50,070 nucleotides of DNA from a bacterium (lineage in GTDB: Bacteria; Bacteroidota; Ignavibacteria; Kapaibacteriales; UBA7675), in the NCBI GenBank assembly GCA_030430495.1, contig JAUIKM010000042.1, positions 1 to 50,070 of the forward strand. The letters run 5' to 3'. The notes under the pieces are model-generated. The model was not told the origin of the DNA and did no database searches. It saw nothing but the letters and a program-made list of their open reading frames with translations. This document shows, in pieces, positions 3,640-43,789 of the stretch. The number at the start of each line of letters is the position of its first letter. The stretch's first letter is position 1. Both the position numbers and the translations under genes were made by a program.

Positions 3640-4950
3640 ATGAAGATCAAGAAGTATATCGCAGCAAGCATGAAAGAAGCGGTGGAGCAGATGCGCCGCG
3701 AGTTGGGCGACGAAGCCGTCATCCTCTCCACACGCTCCCTGCCGAAGGCCAACGGGCACCCGGGCGAGATGCTTGAGATCACCGCTGCCGCGGATACTTC
3801 CGAAAACGAAACAGCGCGCGAGACCGTCGCCGCCACCGCCCCGAGCACCTTCCAGGCGCGCCGTTACTCCGACACCTACGTCCGCGAAATCAGCCGCAAG
3901 GAGCGCCTGCCTCGAACGCCGGTCGCATCCCGGCCGCAACCAGCATCAGACGCCAAAGACAAAAACTCCGGCCAGGATCTGCTGCTCAGACAAGCCTCGG
4001 CCTTTGCCTCGCTGCAGGACGAACTCGCCGACATTCGCGAGCGCCTTGTGGACATTACCCGCGGCATCCGCTACAAACACTCAGCCTCTCTGAACGATCA
4101 CAGTTCCATCCTCTATCAACGCCTGCTGGACAGCGGCCTGCGTGAAGACCTCACGCTGGAAGTCATCGGGTCGGCCATGGCCGAAGTAAAAAGCGGCGGA
4201 TTACACGAGCTGTTGACGGCCGTGCGCAAGTCGCTGGGCAGCCGCATCAAAATTTACGGCGGGCTGGAATACGGAGGAGGCCAGGGCGCAAAACAACGAC
4301 GTGTCATCGTTGTCGTCGGCGCGCCGGGCGGCGGGAAAACATCGGCGCTGGCGAAAATGGCCATCGCGGCGCGCCACGTGCACAAGGCCGACGTGCGGAT
4401 TATTTCCGCCGATACGCACCGCATCGGCGGTGTAGAACAATTGCAGACAATCGCAGCCATCGCCGGCCTGCCCTTCGAACTCGTTTACAGCTCGCAGGAA
4501 CTGCGCCAGGCTGTTGTCGGCGCGACGGAGCCCGACTTTATTTTTGTCGACACGGCCGGCTGCGGGCCGCACGACCGCAACCGCAAACTGGAAATCCGGA
4601 CTTTTCTGGAGGCGGCCGCGGCCGACGAGGTGCTGCTGGTGCAGGACGCCTGCGCCTCCGAGTACAGCATCCGCGCGGGTTTTGAAACCGGCGAGTTCTT
4701 CAACGCCGGAGCCATGATCCTGAGCAAAGTCGACGAGTGCAGCGCCATCGGGCCCGTGTTCAACGCTCTGCTCTCGAATGCACAGGCCGCCGCCGGACGC
4801 CCGGCCATGCCGCTGGCGTATTTCTGCACCGGGCCGGCGATTCCCGACGACATCGAACCCGCGGCGCGCATGCCGCTGGTCGACATGTTGCTGCCCCTCC
4901 ACGCCGAGCCGGCGCGCAACGGAGCACGAGCGGCGGGAGTGGCGTCATGA
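3640..4950 (+). CDS. flhF: Flagellar GTPase FlhF (SRP-type)
   Basis: FlhF is an SRP-family GTPase that directs flagellar position and number at the cell pole. This copy has 436 residues, the usual size. The N-terminus (MKIKKYIAASMKEAVEQ, then GDEAVILSTR) is the typical FlhF opening. A low-complexity Ala/Arg linker follows, then the NG domain: P-loop GAPGGGKTS from residue 227, ISADTHRIG, and VDTAGCGPHD as the G3 region. The P-loop is slightly atypical (GG where GVGKTT is common). The start has GGGAAGG about 12 bases upstream. Its stop overlaps the next start as ATGA, indicating translational coupling to flhG. In many genomes flhA precedes flhF. Here the upstream neighbour is the divergent transketolase gene, so this gene opens its own operon. 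Confidence 0.93.
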   Translation: MKIKKYIAASMKEAVEQMRRELGDEAVILSTRSLPKANGHPGEMLEITAAADTSENETARETVAATAPSTFQARRYSDTYVREISRKERLPRTPVASRPQPASDAKDKNSGQDLLLRQASAFASLQDELADIRERLVDITRGIRYKHSASLNDHSSILYQRLLDSGLREDLTLEVIGSAMAEVKSGGLHELLTAVRKSLGSRIKIYGGLEYGGGQGAKQRRVIVVVGAPGGGKTSALAKMAIAARHVHKADVRIISADTHRIGGVEQLQTIAAIAGLPFELVYSSQELRQAVVGATEPDFIFVDTAGCGPHDRNRKLEIRTFLEAAAADEVLLVQDACASEYSIRAGFETGEFFNAGAMILSKVDECSAIGPVFNALLSNAQAAAGRPAMPLAYFCTGPAIPDDIEPAARMPLVDMLLPLHAEPARNGARAAGVAS

Positions 4951-5762
4951 GCGAACAGGCCGCAGACATTTTGCTGCGCGAACAAACGCCCGGCACAGGC
5001 GGCGCCGAAGGCGCAAGACCATTCGTCGTTGCCGTTTCCAGCGGCAAGGGCGGCGTCGGCAAAAGTGTGATCGCCGCCAATCTGGCGCTCGCCCTGGCGC
5101 TCAAACAGCGCCGCGTGCTGCTCTGGGACGGCGATTTCGACTATCCCAACGCTCATATCCTTTTCGGCGTGGAACCGCGCGGACGCGCCAACGACGTCTA
5201 CAGCGGTCGCATCAAACTGGATGCCGCCCTCCATTCGCTCAATCCCACGCTGGACCTGCTGGCCGGCAAAACGGGCGGCACGACGAAAGACGCACCGCCG
5301 GCACAATTGCGCGAGACGCTCGACGCGCTCGGCCGCCGCGGCTACGACGTCGTCGTCATCGACAATGCCGCCGGCTCGCAGGACGGAACGATCCAGCTCT
5401 GTGTGCTGGCCGACCTTTCAATCGTCGTGGCGACGGACGAGCCGACCTCGATCGTCGACGCCTACGGGCTGATCAAAATCCTGAAGGCACATTCGCGCGA
5501 GGGCGCGCTGGGCCTGCTGGTAAATAATATCATCGACCGCGATGACGCCGACGACGTGGCGAAAAAGGTCAATCTGGCGACGGAGAAGTTTTTAGATTTG
5601 CACATTCCGCTCGTAGGATTTGTGCCCTACGACCGCATGGTTCGGCAGTCGATCGTCAGTCAGGCGCCCCTGATTGAACAGGCGCGCGACTCCGAAGCGG
5701 CGCAGGCTATCGAATTGACGGCTGCAACTCTGGACCGCGTGCTGGCTGAAAGCCGGCGCTGA
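4947..5762 (+). CDS. flhG: MinD-like ATPase FlhG
   Basis: FlhG (FleN/YlxH) is a MinD/ParA-type ATPase that restrains flagellar number as the partner of FlhF. I start it at the ATG overlapping the flhF stop (271 residues). A longer frame upstream would run through flhF and is not credible. The deviant Walker A motif KGGVGKS lies near residue 36. The Walker A' region reads LLWDGDFDYPNAHILFG, with DGD in place of the more common DAD. Walker B reads VVVIDNAAG, with Asn where Thr is usual. DEPTSIVDAYGLIK is characteristic of FlhG. These substitutions are unusual but the fold is unmistakable. It is translationally coupled to flhF. Confidence 0.92.
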   Translation: MSEQAADILLREQTPGTGGAEGARPFVVAVSSGKGGVGKSVIAANLALALALKQRRVLLWDGDFDYPNAHILFGVEPRGRANDVYSGRIKLDAALHSLNPTLDLLAGKTGGTTKDAPPAQLRETLDALGRRGYDVVVIDNAAGSQDGTIQLCVLADLSIVVATDEPTSIVDAYGLIKILKAHSREGALGLLVNNIIDRDDADDVAKKVNLATEKFLDLHIPLVGFVPYDRMVRQSIVSQAPLIEQARDSEAAQAIELTAATLDRVLAESRR

Positions 5763-19665: not shown

Positions 19666-20679
19666 ATGCGGATTGGATCGATAGAAGTTGAACGCGGTGT
19701 TCTGCTGGCGCCCATGGAGGACGTCACCGACCTGCCCTTCCGCATCATTTGCAAGCGGCTGGGCGCGGATATCGTTTATACCGAGTTCATCTCTTCCGAA
19801 GGCCTCGTGCGCAATGCCTGGCGTTCGCGTTCCAAACTGACGGTAGAGGACGAGGAACGCCCGGTCGCCATTCAGATCTTCGGCGGCAACATCCCCGTGA
19901 TGGTCGAGGCGGCGCGTCTTTCCGAGGAAGCCGGTCCGGATTTCATCGACATCAACTGCGGCTGCTGGGTTAAAAACGTGGTGGCGCGCAGCGCCGGCGC
20001 GGCCCTGCTCAAAGATCCGCCCCTGATGGCCAAAATGGCGCGCGAAATCGTCGACACGGTCAAACTGCCCGTCACGCTCAAGACGCGTCTGGGCTGGGAC
20101 AAAAATTCCATCGTCATCGAAGACGTTGCGCGCCGTCTGGAGCAGGCCGGAATTGCCGCTCTTGCAATTCATTGCCGCACGCGGGACATGGGCCACAACG
20201 GCGACGCCAGCTGGGACTGGATTGCCAAGGTCAAACAAGCCGTCGACATTCCGATTATTATCAACGGCGACATCAAAACGCCGCAGGACGCCAAACGCGC
20301 GTTTGACGAGACGGGTTGCGACGCAGTCATGATTGGCCGCGCGGCGATTTCCAACCCCTTTATCATGCGCCAGACGCGGCGCTACCTGGACGAAGGTGTG
20401 CTGGAAGACTCTCCGACGGCGGAAGAGCGCATCAACACATTGATGGAACATTTGCGCCTGGCGATCCTCCACAAAGGCGATCGCCTCGGCATACGCGAAT
20501 TCAGAAAATTTTACAGCGGTTATCTCAAGGGTCTGCATTGTGCTTCGTCTGCACGTGGCGACCTTGTGCTGTACGACAGTTTCGAACAAATCGAGGAGCG
20601 CCTGGTGCGCTACCGCGAGTTTTTACAGGAATATGAGGCCGAGCGCCTGGCGAACGATACAGTTTACGCGGCAGCCTGA
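19666..20679 (+). CDS. dus: tRNA-dihydrouridine synthase (Dus family)
   Basis: This FMN enzyme reduces uridine to dihydrouridine in tRNA D-loops. It has 337 residues, the family length. The TIM-barrel motifs are in order: LLAPMEDVTDLPFRIICK at the start, YTEFISSEGLVRN, DINCGC with the presumed catalytic Cys100, LKTRLGWD, HCRTRDMGH with His169, and PIIINGDIKTPQDA followed by MIGRAAISNPF for phosphate binding. In most Dus proteins the catalytic Cys is followed by Pro; here it is followed by Trp. The paralogue class (A, B or C) cannot be fixed by eye, though length and neighbours suggest a DusB-like enzyme. It precedes tilS, another tRNA-modifying gene. Confidence 0.92.
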   Translation: MRIGSIEVERGVLLAPMEDVTDLPFRIICKRLGADIVYTEFISSEGLVRNAWRSRSKLTVEDEERPVAIQIFGGNIPVMVEAARLSEEAGPDFIDINCGCWVKNVVARSAGAALLKDPPLMAKMAREIVDTVKLPVTLKTRLGWDKNSIVIEDVARRLEQAGIAALAIHCRTRDMGHNGDASWDWIAKVKQAVDIPIIINGDIKTPQDAKRAFDETGCDAVMIGRAAISNPFIMRQTRRYLDEGVLEDSPTAEERINTLMEHLRLAILHKGDRLGIREFRKFYSGYLKGLHCASSARGDLVLYDSFEQIEERLVRYREFLQEYEAERLANDTVYAAA

Positions 20680-20800
20680 ATGATTTCCAAGACGGGACAC
20701 AGCCTGATAAAACCTCTCTTGTTTGTCCCCGAGAACAAAGCCGCAAACAGCCGCGCACGGTCTTTTAACCCGCACTAATACGACGGGTCTTACAGACAAC

Positions 20801-23800
20801 ATGGCAAAAAAATCCGACGCGGGCTCACACAAGAGCGCCGCGCGTACCCCGCATCCGGAACGATCCTCACAGGCGCCGGACGACAACCCGCAACAGGAAC
20901 CCAGACGTTCCGACACCGACAGAGAGCGCCGGCCGCAGCAATCGCGCAGGCGTGGCGGCGGCAGCCGCAGCAACCAGAATCGCAACAGCGGACGTCGTCC
21001 CCAGGCGGAGCGCCCCCCCGCGCCTCAACGCCGACAGAACTTCGCTCCCGAACAACATCCCTTCGGTCCTCCGGTTCAGTATTTCGACGACGAGCGTGGG
21101 CAGGACAACAACGAACGCTACGAACGCAGCCCTCGCGGCCGCGAACGCACGCCCGACTGGACCGATCAGTACTACGAAGATTTCTACGGCCGTCCGCAGC
21201 GCCAGCAAGCCGATTTTTATGACGACCGGCGCGCTCCCGCCCCGACGCCTGGCCGCCGACCTGAGTTTGCAGGTGAATACGACGACTTTTACGGTCCGCC
21301 GGCCCCCGAGGCGCGCCAGGACGATCGCCGTCGCGGACGCCGCGACGACAGACGCCCGGACGAAGCCGGCGCTCCCGAGTACCAGGATGATCGCGATCGC
21401 CGCGGCCGTCGCGGCGATGAGCGACGCGGCGACAGACGTGATGAACGACGCAGTGAAAGACGCGATGAACGACCTGACGACAGACGCGATGCCAGACGCG
21501 ATGAACGATCTGACGACAGACGCGATGAACGATCTGACGACAGACGCAATGAGCGACGCGGCGACAGACGCGGTGAGCGACGCGGCAACAGACGCGATGA
21601 ACGAATCGACGACAGACGCGATGAACGAATCGACGACAGACGCGATGAGCGACGCGGCGACAGACGCGATGAGCGACGCGGCGACAGACGCGATGAGCGA
21701 CGCGGCGACAGACGCGATGAGCGACGCGGCGACAGACGCGATGAACGAATCGACGACAGACGCGATGAACGAATCGACGACAGACGCGATGAACGAATCG
21801 ACGACGGACGCGATGAACGAATCGACGACAGACGCGATGAACGACGCGGCGACAGACGGCAACCCGAGCGCGGTCGCCGACCTGACCGACGACGTACGGC
21901 GGACGATGCGCCGTCGCAGGAAGATGATCGTCGTGTAGAAACCCCGCGCGAAGAATCGCGTGGTCGCGGCGGACGCGACGGCGCTCAACAGCGCGGAGGC
22001 CGGCAAAAACAGCGCGGAGATCTGCCCCGCGACGAACACCTGGAGCAACATGCCGGCGAAGGCGCACACGATGACGCGCCGGCAGACAAACAACCGGCTC
22101 ACCGCAAACGCGGCGACGACGCAACAACGCGCGACGCCCGCAGCGATGACGAGCAAAAGGATCGGAAACAGAGCGGACGCGGCAAAAAAGGCAAAACCGA
22201 AGTAACCGACGGAAAAACGCCCAAACACAGCCGCTCGGAGACGGCAACCGACAAAGTCGAAAGCAAAACAGCTGAAAAAGACGACGACGGCGATCGCAAG
22301 CCGCTGCACGCTCAGCGCGAAGCGGAACCGGGCGAGGCGCACTCCGACGACGACGAACAAAAAGACGGCAAAGGCAAACGCGGTAAAGGACGCGGAAAAA
22401 GCAGCCGCCGCACCGCCGATACGCGCCGCCTGGAACTGCCGAAAATCAAGATCTCACGCGAATTCCCGAGCAAGGAAGAGCGCGCCGAATACCTGGCAAA
22501 GGTCGCTCCGCTGCCCCTGGATGCCTGGTGCGAGACCCCGTCGGCCGTGCGCGAGTTGATCCTGAGCGTGGAACGCCAGCTAAAAACCGACCTGGCCGTT
22601 GATGGCGGCGCACGCATTATTCTGGCCGTCAGCGGCGGAGTGGATTCCTCCGTGATGCTGGACATCATGGTTGAACTGGCTTTCCGCAATGGCTATGAGT
22701 TGTTTGTGGCGCACTTCAATCACCGGCTGCGCGGCGACAGCGCAGACAGCGACGAAGAATTTGTGCGCACGCGCGCCAGGGAACTGGCCCTGCCGTTTAT
22801 CGGCGGATCGGCCGACATCAGTTCCTACGCTTCGCGCGCCAAAATCAGCGTGGAGCAGGCCTCGCGCGATGTGCGATATCGCTTCCTGGAACAGGTGGCG
22901 CGTAAATCCAACGCCGGCCTGGTGGCTACGGCGCACACGGCCAACGACACGGTGGAAACGCTGCTGCTCAACCTGATGCGCGGCACGGGGCTGACCGGCC
23001 TGAGCGGTATTCCGGCGCGCCGCAGATTCACAAAAGACTGTAGCCTCATCCGCCCATTCCTGAACGTCAAAAAAGCCGAGTTGGAAGTGTACGCCTCGGC
23101 AAACGGCACAAAATGGCGCGAGGATGAGAGCAACAACCTGATGCTGTTTACGCGCAATAAAATCCGCCACGACCTTCTGCCGCGCCTGCAGGCCGATTAT
23201 TCGCCGGCGATCGTCGACATCCTGCTGCGGACTTCGCGGTTGCTGAGCGGCGCGGACAAAGCCGTGACGCAGATGGTGGAACGCTCGGTCCAGCGCATCG
23301 TCAAAGCCAAGGGCAACTCACGGATTACACTTCTGATTGCGGCGCTCCAGGCCCACAGCGAATTCCTGCAGGGCGAATTGTTGCAGCGCATCATCCAGAA
23401 ACAATTCCACATCCTGCCGCTGCCGATTGCCGCGGTGGACCGCCTGCTGAAATTGATGGACGCGGACGTCGGCACACGCACGGACATTTCCGGGCGACTG
23501 TTTGCGCTCAAAGACCGCGAAACGATTATCGTGGCGGAAAAACAGGCCAGCTATTCGTTGAAAATGGCGGTGGAAAAAGGCCGGGAATACACCGTCGGCA
23601 ACTACAAAATCAAGCTGAGCGAAGTAGCGGTTGACGTCGCCAAATTCGACCAGAATCCGAATGTGGAATTTCTGGACATGGAAACGACGCCGCGCCGCAT
23701 GACCCTGCGCACCTGGGAGCCGGGCGACAGCTTCCGCCCCCTGGGCATGCGCGGCAGCATGAAGATCAGCGACTTTCTGACAAATCAGAAGGTGCCGCTC

Positions 23801-23947
23801 CTCGACAAACAACACCAACTGGTTCTGGCCACAAGCCGCGACATTCTCTGGGTCGTCGGCCACAGAATCAGCGAGACGTTCCGCGTGCCGAAAGGCGCAA
23901 AAACCGCATTGAAGGTGGAATGGAGCGAGCTGGAGGACGACAACTGA
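20801..23947 (+). CDS. tilS: TilS lysidine synthetase with giant disordered N-terminal extension
   Basis: TilS converts C34 of the AUA-reading tRNA-Ile to lysidine using ATP and lysine. It is essential in most bacteria. The C-terminal ~450 residues are a normal TilS: PP-loop SGGVDSS from residue 611, HFNHRLRGDSADSDE, TAHTANDTVETLLLNLMRGTG and LIRPFL. At about 964-1040 is the TilS C-terminal domain with LRTWEPGDSFRPLGM and WVVGHRISETFRVPK. The preceding ~590 residues are low-complexity, dominated by Arg, Asp, Glu, Gln and Gly. They include DFYG-like aromatic motifs (about 125-170) and a DRRDERxx octapeptide array (residues 210-349). The usual family length is about 320-480, against 1048 here. 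The frame is continuous, and the ATG at 20801 is the natural start. Internal initiation near 22556 (TTG) would give a standard-size TilS and cannot be excluded. Confidence 0.92.
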   Translation: MAKKSDAGSHKSAARTPHPERSSQAPDDNPQQEPRRSDTDRERRPQQSRRRGGGSRSNQNRNSGRRPQAERPPAPQRRQNFAPEQHPFGPPVQYFDDERGQDNNERYERSPRGRERTPDWTDQYYEDFYGRPQRQQADFYDDRRAPAPTPGRRPEFAGEYDDFYGPPAPEARQDDRRRGRRDDRRPDEAGAPEYQDDRDRRGRRGDERRGDRRDERRSERRDERPDDRRDARRDERSDDRRDERSDDRRNERRGDRRGERRGNRRDERIDDRRDERIDDRRDERRGDRRDERRGDRRDERRGDRRDERRGDRRDERIDDRRDERIDDRRDERIDDGRDERIDDRRDERRGDRRQPERGRRPDRRRTADDAPSQEDDRRVETPREESRGRGGRDGAQQRGGRQKQRGDLPRDEHLEQHAGEGAHDDAPADKQPAHRKRGDDATTRDARSDDEQKDRKQSGRGKKGKTEVTDGKTPKHSRSETATDKVESKTAEKDDDGDRKPLHAQREAEPGEAHSDDDEQKDGKGKRGKGRGKSSRRTADTRRLELPKIKISREFPSKEERAEYLAKVAPLPLDAWCETPSAVRELILSVERQLKTDLAVDGGARIILAVSGGVDSSVMLDIMVELAFRNGYELFVAHFNHRLRGDSADSDEEFVRTRARELALPFIGGSADISSYASRAKISVEQASRDVRYRFLEQVARKSNAGLVATAHTANDTVETLLLNLMRGTGLTGLSGIPARRRFTKDCSLIRPFLNVKKAELEVYASANGTKWREDESNNLMLFTRNKIRHDLLPRLQADYSPAIVDILLRTSRLLSGADKAVTQMVERSVQRIVKAKGNSRITLLIAALQAHSEFLQGELLQRIIQKQFHILPLPIAAVDRLLKLMDADVGTRTDISGRLFALKDRETIIVAEKQASYSLKMAVEKGREYTVGNYKIKLSEVAVDVAKFDQNPNVEFLDMETTPRRMTLRTWEPGDSFRPLGMRGSMKISDFLTNQKVPLLDKQHQLVLATSRDILWVVGHRISETFRVPKGAKTALKVEWSELEDDN
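21428..21847 (+). repeat. 24-bp coding tandem repeat (17 units) in tilS
   Basis: Seventeen 24-base units, plus one 12-base half unit near the fourth, encode octapeptides of the form DRRDER followed by RG or ID. Two unit types alternate in blocks: one ending CGACGCGGC (ERRG) and one ending CGAATCGAC (ERID). The central and 3' units are nearly identical at the DNA level and the 5' units are diverged, which suggests recent expansion at the 3' side. Unit length is a multiple of three, so copy-number change would keep tilS in frame. Confidence 0.93.
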
Positions 23948-24498
23948 ACAGCGAATCGCAACGCGTCGAAATCAACGGCAAACTTTTCCGCCCATTTATC
24001 TCCCGCGATCGCATAGCGACGGAAATCGCCCGTTTAGGCGACGAAATAACACGGGACTACAATCAGAAAAATCCGCTCTTCGTCGTGGTGCTGAAGGGAT
24101 CGTTGATCTTTGCCGCTGATCTGCTGCGCGCCGTGCGCACTCCCTGCACGCTGGAATGTATGCGCGCGCAATCGTACGGAGCGGCGATGACGTCGCAGCG
24201 AACTCCCGAAGTGGAAGCGATGGAATTTGACTGTTCCGGCCGGGACATCATCATCCTTGAAGACATCGTCGACACGGGCCGTACAATTTCAGCCATAACG
24301 CGGCGTTTACAGGCCTGTTCGCCTAACTCGGTGAGGGCCGCGGCGCTACTCGACAAGCCTGGTGCGCGCGATCCGCACAACGCTTACCGCCCGGACTACG
24401 TCGGATTTGAAGTAGAGAATGACTTCGTCGTAGGATATGGCCTCGATTTCGACGAACAGGGGCGTCAGCTGGCTGACATTTACATTCTCGAGACCTGA
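23920..24498 (+). CDS. hpt: Hypoxanthine phosphoribosyltransferase
   Basis: This purine salvage enzyme joins hypoxanthine or guanine to PRPP to make IMP or GMP. It has 192 residues with the family features: ISRDRIATEIARLGDEI, VVLKGSLIFAADLLRAV (the loop before the PPi site), the PRPP-binding EDIVDTGRTIS at about 110-122, and VGYGLDFDEQGR near the C-terminus. The ATG at 23920 overlaps the tilS end by 28 bases. A CTG at 23944 has GGAGG seven bases upstream and would trim eight residues before the conserved region, so the true start is open. The tilS-hpt-ftsH order is also found in Bacillus subtilis, which supports all three calls. Confidence 0.93.
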   Translation: MERAGGRQLNSESQRVEINGKLFRPFISRDRIATEIARLGDEITRDYNQKNPLFVVVLKGSLIFAADLLRAVRTPCTLECMRAQSYGAAMTSQRTPEVEAMEFDCSGRDIIILEDIVDTGRTISAITRRLQACSPNSVRAAALLDKPGARDPHNAYRPDYVGFEVENDFVVGYGLDFDEQGRQLADIYILET

Positions 24499-24597: not shown

Positions 24598-26793
24598 ATG
24601 GCCCAAAACGACAATAACGACCGTCCCAATCCCGAGCGCAGACGCCCGCCTGAACGGCCCGGCATGCCCGGCGGCGGCGGCGGTTTCAACCGCAATAACA
24701 ACGACGACGACGACAACAACTTCTCGCGCTCAATGCGCACTGCGCTTGTCTGGATGTCAATTCTGGGCGGTACCCTGCTGATTCTGTTTTTCTTTAACTC
24801 CAGCCAGCAGGGTCAATCACGCATCAGCTACAACGAGTATCAGCGACTGATCTCTGAAGGGCGCGTCAAAACGGCCACCATTGAAAATCAGGGCCTCAAC
24901 TCCTACCTGTTTATCGGTAAACTGAAAGGCCAGACCCGCGTCAATTTCGGCGAGGGCGTTGCTCACGAGATTTCGTCCTTTAATGTTCCCCTGGCTTACG
25001 TCAACAGCGAAACCGAAGAATGGTGGCGCTCCAACGGCGTCGAATGGACCTACAGCAACAACTCCAACTCCATCTGGGACACGCTGTTAACATTTCTGCC
25101 CTTCATCCTGCTGATTGCCATTTTTATGGTCGTGATGCGCCGGATGCAAAACGGCAACTCCCGCGGCATCTTTACCTTCGGCAAGTCGCGCGCGCGCCTG
25201 ATCAACGATACAGGCAAAAAAGTGACGTTTGAAGACGTCGCCGGCGCAGATGAAGCCAAATATGAACTCGAAGAAATCATTGAATTCCTGCGCAATCCTG
25301 AAAAATTCCAGAAACTGGGCGGCAAGATTCCGCGCGGCGTGCTGCTGCTCGGGCCTCCGGGTACCGGTAAGACGCTGCTTGCGCGCGCCGTAGCCGGCGA
25401 AGCCAACGTGCCCTTTTTCTCCATCTCCGGCGCGGACTTCGTTGAAATGTTCGTGGGCGTCGGCGCCAGCCGCGTGCGCGACCTGTTTGAACAAGCCAAG
25501 AAAAACCATCCCTGCATCATCTTTATTGACGAGATCGACGCCGTCGGTCGCCACCGCGGCACCGGTCTGGGCGGCGGTCACGACGAGCGCGAACAGACGC
25601 TCAATCAGTTGCTGGTTGAAATGGATGGTTTTGAGCAGAATTCCGGCGTGATTGTCGTGGCTGCCACGAACCGCCCCGACGTGCTGGACCCCGCCCTGCT
25701 GCGCCCGGGCCGCTTTGACCGCCAGGTAGTGGTCGACCGACCGGACGTCAGGGGACGCCTCGGCATCCTGAAAGTCCACACGAAAAAAATCCCGATGGAT
25801 CAGAGCGTCAATCTGGAAGTCATTGCCGCCGGCACGCCCGGCCTCTCCGGCGCCGACCTGGCCAACCTCGTCAATGAGGCCGCTCTGCTCGCAGCGCGCT
25901 ACGGCTGCGACGCTGTCAACATGGAACTGATTGACGAAGCCAAGGACAAGATCCTGATGGGCGTCAAGCGTCAGAGCATGGTCATTACCGATGATGAAAA
26001 ACTGACGACAGCCTACCACGAAATGGGCCACGCCCTGGTGGGCATGCTGGTCAAAGACAGCGATCCCGTGCACAAAGTCACGATCATTCCGCGCGGACGC
26101 GCACTGGGCCTCACTTCTTACCTGCCGTCCGAGCAACTGCACACGATGAGCAAGGAACGCATCGAAGTGCGCATCGTGGCACTGCTGGCCGGCCGCGCCG
26201 CCGAAAAACTGGTGTTCAACAAACTGAACACCGGCGCCATGAACGACCTTGAGCGCGCCACCATGCTTGCGCGCAAAATGGTGTGTGAGTGGGGCATGAG
26301 CGATACGCTGGGACCGGTCTTCTACTCGAACAACGATGAAGAACCGTTCCTGGGCCGCGAACTCTCTCACTCCAAACACATCAGTGAGGAGACGGCGCGC
26401 GCAATCGACGCCGAGGTTCGCAGCATCATGCAGGCGGGGATGGAAAAGGCTGAAACGCTGCTGCGCGAAAACATGGACCTGCTGCACAAAACGAGCCAGC
26501 TGCTGGTTGAGCGCGAAAGCCTCGATTCCAGCGAGCTCAAACTCATCATGGAAGGCAAGGAACTGCCGCCCAAAGCAGTTTCGCTGCACGCCGTGGGCAG
26601 CAAAGCCGGCAAAACCGAGGCGGCGGGCGAAGCGACCGCAGCTGCCGACGGTGACACGCGTCGCCGGCGCTTTGCATCCACGCTCAAGTCCACGATAAAA
26701 AGCAAAGAAAAATCCGGCTCCGGCGAGGAAGTCGAAAAAGGCAAGGTTGAAGGCAGCCGCGGCGATGCGGATGCCTCTGCTGAAGGCGCCTGA
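24598..26793 (+). CDS. ftsH: ATP-dependent zinc metalloprotease FtsH
   Basis: FtsH is a membrane-anchored AAA protease that degrades misfolded membrane proteins and short-lived regulators. This copy has 731 residues. After a low-complexity Asn/Pro/Asp/Gly N-terminus of about 45 residues come two membrane helices (about 46-68 and 160-183) bracketing a periplasmic domain. The AAA domain has Walker A GPPGTGKT at 252-259, Walker [12 protein letters not shown] and the second region of homology [20 protein letters not shown]. The protease site is HEMGH at 474-478, matching HExxH, although HEAGH is the common form. The later acidic zinc ligand lies in [16 protein letters not shown] precedes the start by about ten bases. 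It ends the tilS-hpt-ftsH cluster. Confidence 0.95.
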
Positions 26794-41611: not shown

Positions 41612-43789
41612 ATGAGCATGAGCAGACTTAACAAAGCCCTTCTTGTTTGTTGTTGTTGGTTCAGCCTCGCGTTGTCGGGTCAGGCCCAAAACGCCGAACC
41701 GCCAACCGACAACCCGTCGACAAACAAAAAGGCGGCCAAAGAGCTGCGCACAGCATCCGATGCCGACTCTGTGGACGCTTCAGCGCAGCCGCCGCGGAAC
41801 GACGCGCCCCTGCACGTTGAGCAGTTTAACAACATCCCCTATCCGCTTATCGGTGTATTCGGCGGGATGCAGTTGAACCAGCACAGCGCCGGTTTCAGCA
41901 ATTTACCGGGCGTACCTTCCTGCTGTCCCGGCTACGAAAGCGGCAGCGGCGCGGGCGTGGCCTTCGGCGGCATGTTTCAGTTGCCCGCCACGGAAACGAT
42001 CGCTTTGCAGATGCGCGCCTCGTTTACAAGCCTGGGCGGTGAGATTGTCGAGCCGGAGAGCTTTGAAATTCTGAACGAAAACACGGACGAGACACAGACG
42101 GCGACGTTTGAGCACAGGCTGGAATCATCGATTAACGTTCTGGCGCTTGAGCCTTCGGCGCTCTGGTATCCAATCGATCGACCGCTTGCGTTGCGTCTGG
42201 GCGCCAACCTGGGTTTTGTGATTTCCGACAGTTACAGCGAGCAGGAAGTGCTCGTGACGCCCGAAGCGGCGACCTTTTCCAACGGCGACGTGGTGCGTAA
42301 TGCCAGCGACGGCGCCATCCCGAATGCGCAGAGCCTTTATGCCGGCGTGACGCTGGGCGTCGGATACGACCTGCCCCTGGCCGCTTTCCTGCGTTTAACA
42401 CCCGAAATTTCTTACACGTACAACGTCACGAATGTCGTGGACGGCATCGACTGGAATGTTAACGCGCTGCGCTTCGGCGCGGGGGTAAGTTATGCCTTTT
42501 TCCCGTCGCCGCCCCCGCCGCCGCCGCCACCGCCGGCGCCGGAACCCGAACCGAAACCGATTCCCGAGCCGGAGCCGCTCGAACCGCCGCCGCCGCCGGT
42601 GCTTGCCACGGATATTTCCATCGGCAAGATCTTCAAAAACGGCGCGGAAACAGACGACATGAGTTTAACGGTGGAAGAGACGGAGTACCGCGAGGTCCTG
42701 CCTTTGCTGCCGATCGTGTACTTCCCCGCAGGCGAATCGGAGCTTAAACAAACGCGGCTGAACCGCATTACGCCGGACAGCGCCGAGACTTTCCGCGAGT
42801 CGGACCTGCCCAACAAGACGCTGGAATGTTACTATCACACGCTTAACATTATCGGCCGTCGTCTGCTGGAAAACCCCGAGGCGAAAATCAGCCTGAAGGG
42901 CGTCATCAACCCGCGAGAGGGTCGCGGCAATCCGGCCGAACTGGCGCAGGAACGCGCGGAGGAAGTTAGGAAGTACTTCACCGATGTATGGAATATTTCG
43001 GACGATCGCATTTCGCTTTCAACCGCGCCAAGCGACAAGGTAACGCCTAACTCGCTCAACGAAGTTGTCGAAGAGGAACGTTCGGTCGTCATAAGCACGG
43101 ATTCGTACGAGGTGTTGCGTCCGGTGGTTATCACGCGCTCGCGGCGCGGTATCGACGTCACGTCGATGGAATTCCTGCCGAGCGTTGTATCGGAAGCCGG
43201 ACTCGAATCGCTTGAGATCGAAATCCGCCAGGGCGAGCACTTCGTCGCCGCTCTGTACGACACCACCAGCGGCCTGATCCGCTGGGAGCCGGAAGCCGAT
43301 GCATTCACAAACGAAGAAACACCGCTGACGATAGCACTCAAAGTGCGCGATATTCAGGGACAAAGCGACTCCGTCGCCACGTCCGTACCGGTTCGTCAGT
43401 TGACGATCCAGGACAAAAAGTTAAACAACCAGAAAGACCGGATTATCGAGAAGTACTCGCTGATCCTGTTTGAATTCGACGACCACGAGCTGGACGTGCG
43501 CAACCGCCGCATTCTGGATGAGGTGGCTTCACGCATACAGCCCAACTCCACCGTGTTGATACAAGGTTTTACCGACCGCACAGGCACGGAGGAATACAAC
43601 GAACGGCTGGCACGGGACCGCTCGCGCAAGATCGTGCAGTACCTGGAAGACCGCCTTGAAATCGAGCACGACAATATTCGCTGGGAAGCCGTGGGTAAAA
43701 AACGCGCGCTTTACGACAACGACCTGACGGAGGGCCGCGCGTACTCGCGCACGGTTGTGATCAGCATCGAAACGCCGATCAAGCGGTGA
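41612..43789 (+). CDS. OmpA-family outer membrane protein
   Basis: This 725-residue envelope protein has a signal peptide (LLVCCCWFSLALSGQAQ) and a beta-barrel-like region at about 70-290 with alternating strands, ending FGAGVSYAFF. A Pro/Glu linker follows at about 299-331. Next is a degenerate OmpA-like module (about 365-500, VYFPAGESEL and AQERAEEVRKYF), then a mid domain. The clear C-terminal OmpA peptidoglycan-binding domain (about 615-725) carries LFEFDDHEL, GFTDRTGTEEYNERLARDRS (the conserved Asp and Arg that grip diaminopimelate) and EGRAYSRTV. It would tether the outer membrane to peptidoglycan. It lies 36 bases after the giant protein gene, so the two are probably co-transcribed. 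A short GGGAC/GTCCC hairpin at 41576-41594 without a T-run could tune the ratio. ATG codons at 41612 and 41618 are both possible. Confidence 0.92.
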   Translation: MSMSRLNKALLVCCCWFSLALSGQAQNAEPPTDNPSTNKKAAKELRTASDADSVDASAQPPRNDAPLHVEQFNNIPYPLIGVFGGMQLNQHSAGFSNLPGVPSCCPGYESGSGAGVAFGGMFQLPATETIALQMRASFTSLGGEIVEPESFEILNENTDETQTATFEHRLESSINVLALEPSALWYPIDRPLALRLGANLGFVISDSYSEQEVLVTPEAATFSNGDVVRNASDGAIPNAQSLYAGVTLGVGYDLPLAAFLRLTPEISYTYNVTNVVDGIDWNVNALRFGAGVSYAFFPSPPPPPPPPPAPEPEPKPIPEPEPLEPPPPPVLATDISIGKIFKNGAETDDMSLTVEETEYREVLPLLPIVYFPAGESELKQTRLNRITPDSAETFRESDLPNKTLECYYHTLNIIGRRLLENPEAKISLKGVINPREGRGNPAELAQERAEEVRKYFTDVWNISDDRISLSTAPSDKVTPNSLNEVVEEERSVVISTDSYEVLRPVVITRSRRGIDVTSMEFLPSVVSEAGLESLEIEIRQGEHFVAALYDTTSGLIRWEPEADAFTNEETPLTIALKVRDIQGQSDSVATSVPVRQLTIQDKKLNNQKDRIIEKYSLILFEFDDHELDVRNRRILDEVASRIQPNSTVLIQGFTDRTGTEEYNERLARDRSRKIVQYLEDRLEIEHDNIRWEAVGKKRALYDNDLTEGRAYSRTVVISIETPIKR

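Follow-up and report, generated by a model that had tools for sequence, protein, structure and literature searches.

The TilS protein (tRNA-Ile lysidine synthetase) encoded in the window, the stretch of 50,070 nucleotides of a Kapaibacteriales genome analysed here (contig JAUIKM010000042.1), was found to carry, in front of a complete catalytic core, an N-terminal extension of more than 500 residues that is predicted to be disordered. Comparison of relatives indicates that this extension is translated as part of the enzyme and that extensions of the same kind occur in most families of the order. TilS is an essential enzyme that has been studied as a compact protein. The sequence of the tail was found to change completely from family to family while its bulk properties are kept, and a role as an RNA-affine charged arm is tentatively proposed.

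The tilS gene, its catalytic core and its neighbours

The open reading frame at 20723–23947 (+), read from the ATG at 20801, encodes a TilS of 1048 residues uninterrupted by a stop, a length that had been claimed in the original prediction and that is borne out by the frame; its identity as TilS is borne out by both Pfam TilS domains and by the NCBIfam model TIGR02432 (180.3 bits, with a curated cut-off of 93.6). In the Pfam profile search, ATP_bind_3 covered residues 606–790 and TilS_C (PF11734) residues 968–1041, the latter with 30 bits against a gathering score of 22. Residues S611, G612, G613, D615 and S616 were invariant across 45 sequences. The AlphaFold2 model showed pLDDT values of about 85–97 over most of the core, its best fold match in Foldseek was 3A2K (E = 1.2e-32, TM = 0.75 by target length), and the best solved structures by sequence were the TilS proteins of Aquifex, Geobacillus and E. 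coli. By every feature checked in the sequence and in the model, the core is a complete, ordinary TilS. A single tilS was found in the 5.6-Mb genome to which the window, a complete contig, belongs. Three CAT tRNAs are present in the same genome (L093, L106 and L113), all called Met by ARAGORN; by sequence, L113 resembles initiator Met and L106 elongator Met, and L093 is the Ile2 candidate. Since one of the three CAU tRNAs resembles tRNA-Ile2, the substrate of TilS, tRNA-Ile2 (CAU), is likely to be present. The genome gave 42 tRNA matches in total, and tRNA-Ile(GAU) was absent among the typed ones; it may sit in an rRNA operon that is absent from the assembly.

The gene had been described as directly following dus, a second tRNA-modifying gene, and dusB does adjoin it upstream (Table 1), but the extended form is not alone in this placement, as the order dus-tilS-hpt-ftsH is kept across much of the order, families with a short TilS included. 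Because the gene order is the same with and without the extension, the extension occupies the short dus–tilS gap of the other genomes. Low-complexity sequence was also noted elsewhere in the window: FtsH has an Asn/Asp/Arg-rich N-terminus (24598–24735) and an 84-residue Ala/Lys/Gly/Glu C-terminal tail (26539–26790), the frame at 4737–5759 (+) has a 97-residue Arg/Ala/Gly-rich N-terminus ahead of a MinD/FlhG-like ATPase sequence (SSGKGGVGKS), and a short CCG/15-bp tandem repeat lies at 42503–42541.

Table 1. Features of the tilS locus in the window and of the C-terminally tailed tilS genes of another order.
Feature	Position	Strand	Evidence
dusB (tRNA dihydrouridine synthase), upstream neighbour	19666–20679	+	TIGR00737, 338.6 bits vs cut-off 293.3; synteny
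tilS including N-terminal extension, 1048 aa	20801–23947	+	Open reading frame; MAK/MAR N-terminus common to relatives
Disordered extension, residues 1–541	20801–22423	+	AlphaFold2 pLDDT <50 nearly throughout, all coil; low hydropathy; charged fraction 0.55
Aromatic patch, DFYG/DFY at residues 127, 138 and 162	21176–21292	+	Sequence; D-W-Y-G patch alike in relative G002
About 19 octads (DRRDERRG/DRRDERID), residues 199–352	21395–21856	+	TRF and translation
Lys/Arg-rich patch beside the core, into LELPKIKIS, residues ~515–553	22343–22459	+	Sequence
Folded linker from extension to catalytic domain (strand 550–554; helices 558–567, 573–577, 581–597)	22424–22612	+	AlphaFold2
TilS core: PP-loop ATPase domain with SGGVDS and TilS C-terminal domain	22613–23944	+	Pfam, NCBIfam, structure matches
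hpt (hypoxanthine phosphoribosyltransferase), overlaps the tilS end	23920–24498	+	TIGR01203, 156.8 bits vs cut-off 150
ftsH, downstream neighbour	24598–26793	+	Pfam
C-terminally tailed tilS of G073 and G091	L150:708–3266 and L151:313–3225	-	Gln/Pro-rich, net-positive, AAKK/KRPAKK motifs near the end

Translation of the extension

Over the repeats, the +1 frame and the antisense strand likewise lack stops, so the openness of the frame is little proof of translation, and the frame-specific codon preference in the repeat section was weak (own frame −0.13) and was not counted as evidence. Two antisense open reading frames over the extension, at 20790–22247 (−) and 20867–22360 (−), of 485 and 497 codons, most plausibly just mirror the Arg/Asp codon repeats. 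The extension was found in frame with the core in 29/29 of the extended TilS proteins of the order that were examined. In close pairs the dN/dS values of the extension were 0.30, 0.19, 0.29 and 0.14, with 0.02–0.08 for the core, and the protein-guided alignment behind these values was cross-checked with alignments built on DNA alone. In the latter, the extension varied most at third codon positions and the gaps of two pairs were multiples of three (4/4 and 10/10, respectively), while two more divergent or repeat-rich pairs had some gaps that were not, which may be due to ambiguous alignment or to frameshifts compensated locally. Most families keep the predicted start as MAK/MAR (or MPK/MPR). 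Because relatives keep the frame, close pairs show purifying selection and the start is conserved, these comparisons indicate that the extension is translated with TilS, and the claim that it truly belongs to the enzyme held.

An alternative, which the original prediction had named among the findings that would refute it, is that the working enzyme begins internally, the upstream part being untranslated or a separate frame. In-frame candidates exist just before SGGVDS (GTG 22547, TTG 22556 and GTG 22568, the first two lying 25–28 codons upstream of the motif), and initiation at GTG 22547 or TTG 22556 would yield a TilS of normal size; from the ATG at 20801 up to the first of these candidates, the frame has no further ATG, GTG or TTG. 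Nevertheless, a frame that runs on into the core in all extended relatives, upstream residues under purifying selection and an upstream start conserved as MAK/MAR make this alternative very improbable, and both an independent upstream gene and an internal-only start were rejected as the main reading on the dN/dS values, the triplet gaps and the conserved start. A minor second isoform may still be made from an internal start beside the long form. A missing stop codon or an assembly error was ruled out, as the in-frame extension is common to relatives.

Anatomy of the extension

The extension had been described as low-complexity up to about residue 590, and its disordered, Arg/Asp/Glu-rich character stood (Arg 24%, Asp 16%, Glu 10%), but the predicted disorder stops near residue 541 and residues ~542–600 form a folded linker in the AlphaFold2 model. 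Disorder prediction agreed with the original expectation, with pLDDT below 50 almost throughout residues 1–541 and no secondary structure; in the alignment given to AlphaFold2, relatives were represented only from a point some 80 residues ahead of the PP-loop, and the tail was therefore effectively folded alone. Fusion with a known domain was ruled out, since Pfam returned only the two TilS domains and AlphaFold2 gave no fold before about residue 542. The DFYG-like aromatic motifs and the DRRDER octad array that had been reported were both recovered (Table 1), the latter as a tandem array detected by TRF at 21483–21858, with a period of 24/72 bp and 85–91% matches. In the octad section 63 R and 61 D/E were counted in 147 residues, which is an Arg-enriched mixed-charge composition, and the charges of the array were well mixed (z = −2.5 against shuffles). 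The net charge of the window tail was +13 over 580 residues, that is, nearly neutral. A search of the genome itself for tail-like sequence returned only the tail, together with weak matches of the same stretch in other frames.

A disorder survey of 403 kb (~7%) of the same genome, comprising 283 open reading frames, placed the TilS tail as the longest disordered run, with 439 residues against 147 for the next (threefold). In the samples of two other genomes, TilS ranked first of 321 open reading frames (G005) and third of 299 (G050). A genome-wide habit of disordered tails was not supported, as TilS is an outlier in the samples and the Rho of the window's own genome is an open frame of just 460 residues.

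Distribution among relatives

TilS was searched in 61 genomes, namely the window's own and relatives of the same family and order, and was found in 60/61, many as open frames of 700–1250 residues. Extensions in the order range from about 90 to 765 residues. All examined members with complete loci of families f1, f4, f7, f8, f9 and f10 have an extended TilS, as does part of f3; families f2, f5 and f6 and the remaining f3 have a short one. When the long/short label was placed on a tree of the cores, 5 changes were required versus 17.1 for shuffled labels, and the presence of the extension is thus phylogenetically clustered on this tree. The window sits in a supported clade of 12 rows, all of them long. 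A simple reading of these sequences is that the extension was gained once, early, and afterwards lost in parts of f3, on a core tree that cannot separate gain from loss. A Candidatus Kapabacteria TilS was found to group among f3, as did the TilS of a contig labelled Desulfobulbaceae (JAGXRP010000035.1), which is nearly identical to f3 members (branch 0.017) and whose bin is probably misnamed or contaminated.

The extension had been thought to be without precedent among TilS proteins. Class-wide (294 genomes) and phylum-wide (118 genomes) surveys showed no further long N-terminal extension among the matches listed, so the form does appear confined to one order, but within that order it occurs in most families, and only the R/D composition and the octads are local to the window's lineage. 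Long TilS frames outside the order (G072, G311, G315, G382, G309 and G321) look like non-coding read-through before a normal start and were set aside, and viral contigs yielded no relative. In two genomes of one genus in another order of the class (G073 and G091), a TilS with a normal N-terminus carries a disordered C-terminal tail of 375–490 residues with an NCPR of +0.09, which to judge from the sequences is apparently independent of the N-terminal one. Two members of f9 have, besides the N-terminal tail, a short Lys-rich C-terminal one.

What is kept between families

The tails could not be aligned between families, and their length, composition and repeat units vary. Tails of the R/D type were found only in the window, G002 and G011; the tail of G001 has KKPAAK and QNKQ repeats, some f3 tails have NPNQ repeats, other f3 tails and those of f9 are of a K/T/E type, and those of f8 and f4 are of a P/R/S type. 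The window and G002 share a block order, with an aromatic D-[FW]-Y-G patch, an R/D section and a K-rich section beside the core. No motif common to the extensions of all families was found among the 29 extended sequences; within f8, four sequences (L055, L056, L054 and L058) hold a conserved block inside the variable extension, SPFGDIIETIQEVLIARNSGRYVP ... HPAIGFKMYAPNPH, also written SPFGDIIETIQEVLIARNSGRYVP ... RPPGVDLHPAIGFKMYAPNPH, which may be a binding motif. Several relatives presented blocky charge patterns (z = +2.3 to +6.4) whereas the octads of the window are well mixed, and therefore the behaviour of the tails may differ between families.

Nevertheless, 27/29 extensions carried a net positive charge, counted either along the entire tail or along its main part. 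The 50 residues next to the core were more basic than the remainder, with a median NCPR of 0.12 versus 0.055 elsewhere (Wilcoxon p = 0.003, with kinship ignored). Other disordered segments in the sample of the window's genome had a median NCPR of −0.031, and those of G005 a median of +0.072; since the latter are also net positive, a basic character does not single out TilS in every genome. The sequence comparison shows that what is kept between families is length, disorder, a slight positive charge and the basic patch beside the core, together with a start that is basic in most of them, not the sequence.

Proposed role and alternatives

The reading that is tentatively favoured, at a little under even odds, is that the TilS tail is a lineage-specific, RNA-affine charged arm on an essential enzyme, kept for its bulk properties. 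Through its basic start and the patch beside the core, the tail would touch tRNA or other RNA weakly and at many points, and these contacts would raise the capture of scarce tRNA-Ile2 (CAU) or hold the enzyme at assemblies rich in RNA. Its acidic residues, like the repeats, would act as a solubilising, tunable spacer, and the repeats would turn over fast by slippage because bulk chemistry alone would matter. The arm is supported by the in-frame extension of every extended relative, its dN/dS of 0.14–0.30, the triplet gaps and the phylogenetic clustering, by the prevailing positive charge and the basic patch, set against a slightly negative median for disordered segments of the same genome, and by the apparently independent basic C-terminal tail of G073 and G091. 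The first rank of TilS for disorder in two of the three genomes sampled, the block order common to the window and G002, and the comparable Rho of Bacteroides and human LysRS also point to it. Against it, the window tail is nearly neutral and its octads well mixed, so that RNA affinity should be blunted, several f3 lineages as well as f2, f5 and f6 live with a short TilS, and the disordered segments of G005 are net positive too. A wider version, in which TilS has become an RNA-organising protein across the order, is considered unlikely; the tail would bring TilS into clusters with tRNA or anchor it there, perhaps along with further enzymes of tRNA modification, the decoding of AUA would come to depend on cell state, and the same property would have evolved in another lineage at the other end of the enzyme.

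The strongest rival to the RNA arm is a nearly neutral expansion, in which an insertion between dus and tilS was tolerated, expanded by slippage and kept only since changes of charge or hydrophobicity would cause aggregation, with no specific job for the tail. The complete difference in sequence, length and repeat units between families, the short TilS of several f3 lineages and the young look of the 24-bp tandem array all fit such an expansion. However, most families of a deep clade have kept about 90–765 residues, dN/dS of the extension is well below 1, the MAK/MAR start and the basic patch beside the core are conserved, and a like tail arose on the opposite terminus in another order, and the nearly neutral expansion is accordingly rated as doubtful, though not lightly dismissed. 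By analogy with the Rho region of Bacteroides thetaiotaomicron, the tail might instead phase-separate TilS with RNA under stress or starvation and so switch its activity. The precedent is from the same phylum, where the charged regions of Rho vary just as much (PMC10284900, PMC13269538), the tail of the window combines Arg-enriched mixed charge with aromatic motifs, and several relatives have blocky charge; for the octad part the idea is weakened because the octads are well mixed and peptides of alternating R and D reportedly failed to phase-separate (PMC9324279), and condensation is therefore regarded as an improbable main role. Less probable still is a docking or turnover tail, which would recruit a partner (ribosome, DusB, Hpt or RNA degradosome) or serve as an initiation site for an AAA+ protease and couple the TilS level to physiology: hpt and ftsH adjoin the gene and the f8 extension holds a conserved block, but no motif is common to all families and the gene order is identical with a short TilS.

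Comparison with known systems

As an enzyme the protein is a known TilS. From residue 605 it is like the solved TilS structures (the Geobacillus kaustophilus TilS–tRNA complex 3A2K, Aquifex 2E21/1WY5 and E. coli MesJ 1NI5) in its PP-loop SGGVDS, C-terminal domain and fold, but the solved chains are of 311–464 residues and the window TilS has about 600 more in front. The order-wide disordered tail is the new aspect, no description of a disordered tail on a bacterial TilS having been found in the literature searched. The octads of the window are like Arg-enriched mixed-charge domains (R-MCDs) in being built of R and D/E, whereas tails rich in Lys, Gln, Asn or Pro are found in other families of the order and the R-MCD look was seen only in the window and, largely, in G002 and G011; speckles are not known from bacteria. 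With R/D peptides, blocky sequences were reported to phase-separate and alternating ones not to (PMC9324279). The TilS of Plasmodium falciparum also has an N-terminal extension, of 180 residues, but this is a predicted apicoplast transit peptide (PMC12069591), a function inapplicable to a bacterium. Human lysyl-tRNA synthetase likewise bears a disordered N-terminal appended domain, which is reported to bind nucleic acid non-specifically (PMC6213541); the enzyme differs in being eukaryotic and part of a synthetase complex.

The order-wide, fast-evolving TilS tail offers a natural experiment on disorder in RNA enzymes, in which sequence is free and bulk chemistry is kept, and what looks like a separate case, on the C-terminus of TilS from another order, adds to it. 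In design the protein is comparable to Rho of Bacteroides thetaiotaomicron, which is likewise conserved, essential and active on RNA, and which in one lineage acquired a long, charged, disordered region; the composition of that region is highly variable between taxa and it drives RNA-dependent condensation (PMC10284900, PMC13269538). TilS was found to have the same combination of a long, lineage-restricted, charged disordered region and a conserved RNA-acting protein, and together TilS and Rho suggest a recurrent gain of charged disorder on core RNA-acting proteins in the phylum. The two differ in that the Rho region is an internal insertion whose RNA-dependent condensation was shown experimentally, whereas the TilS tail is terminal and predicted to be disordered.
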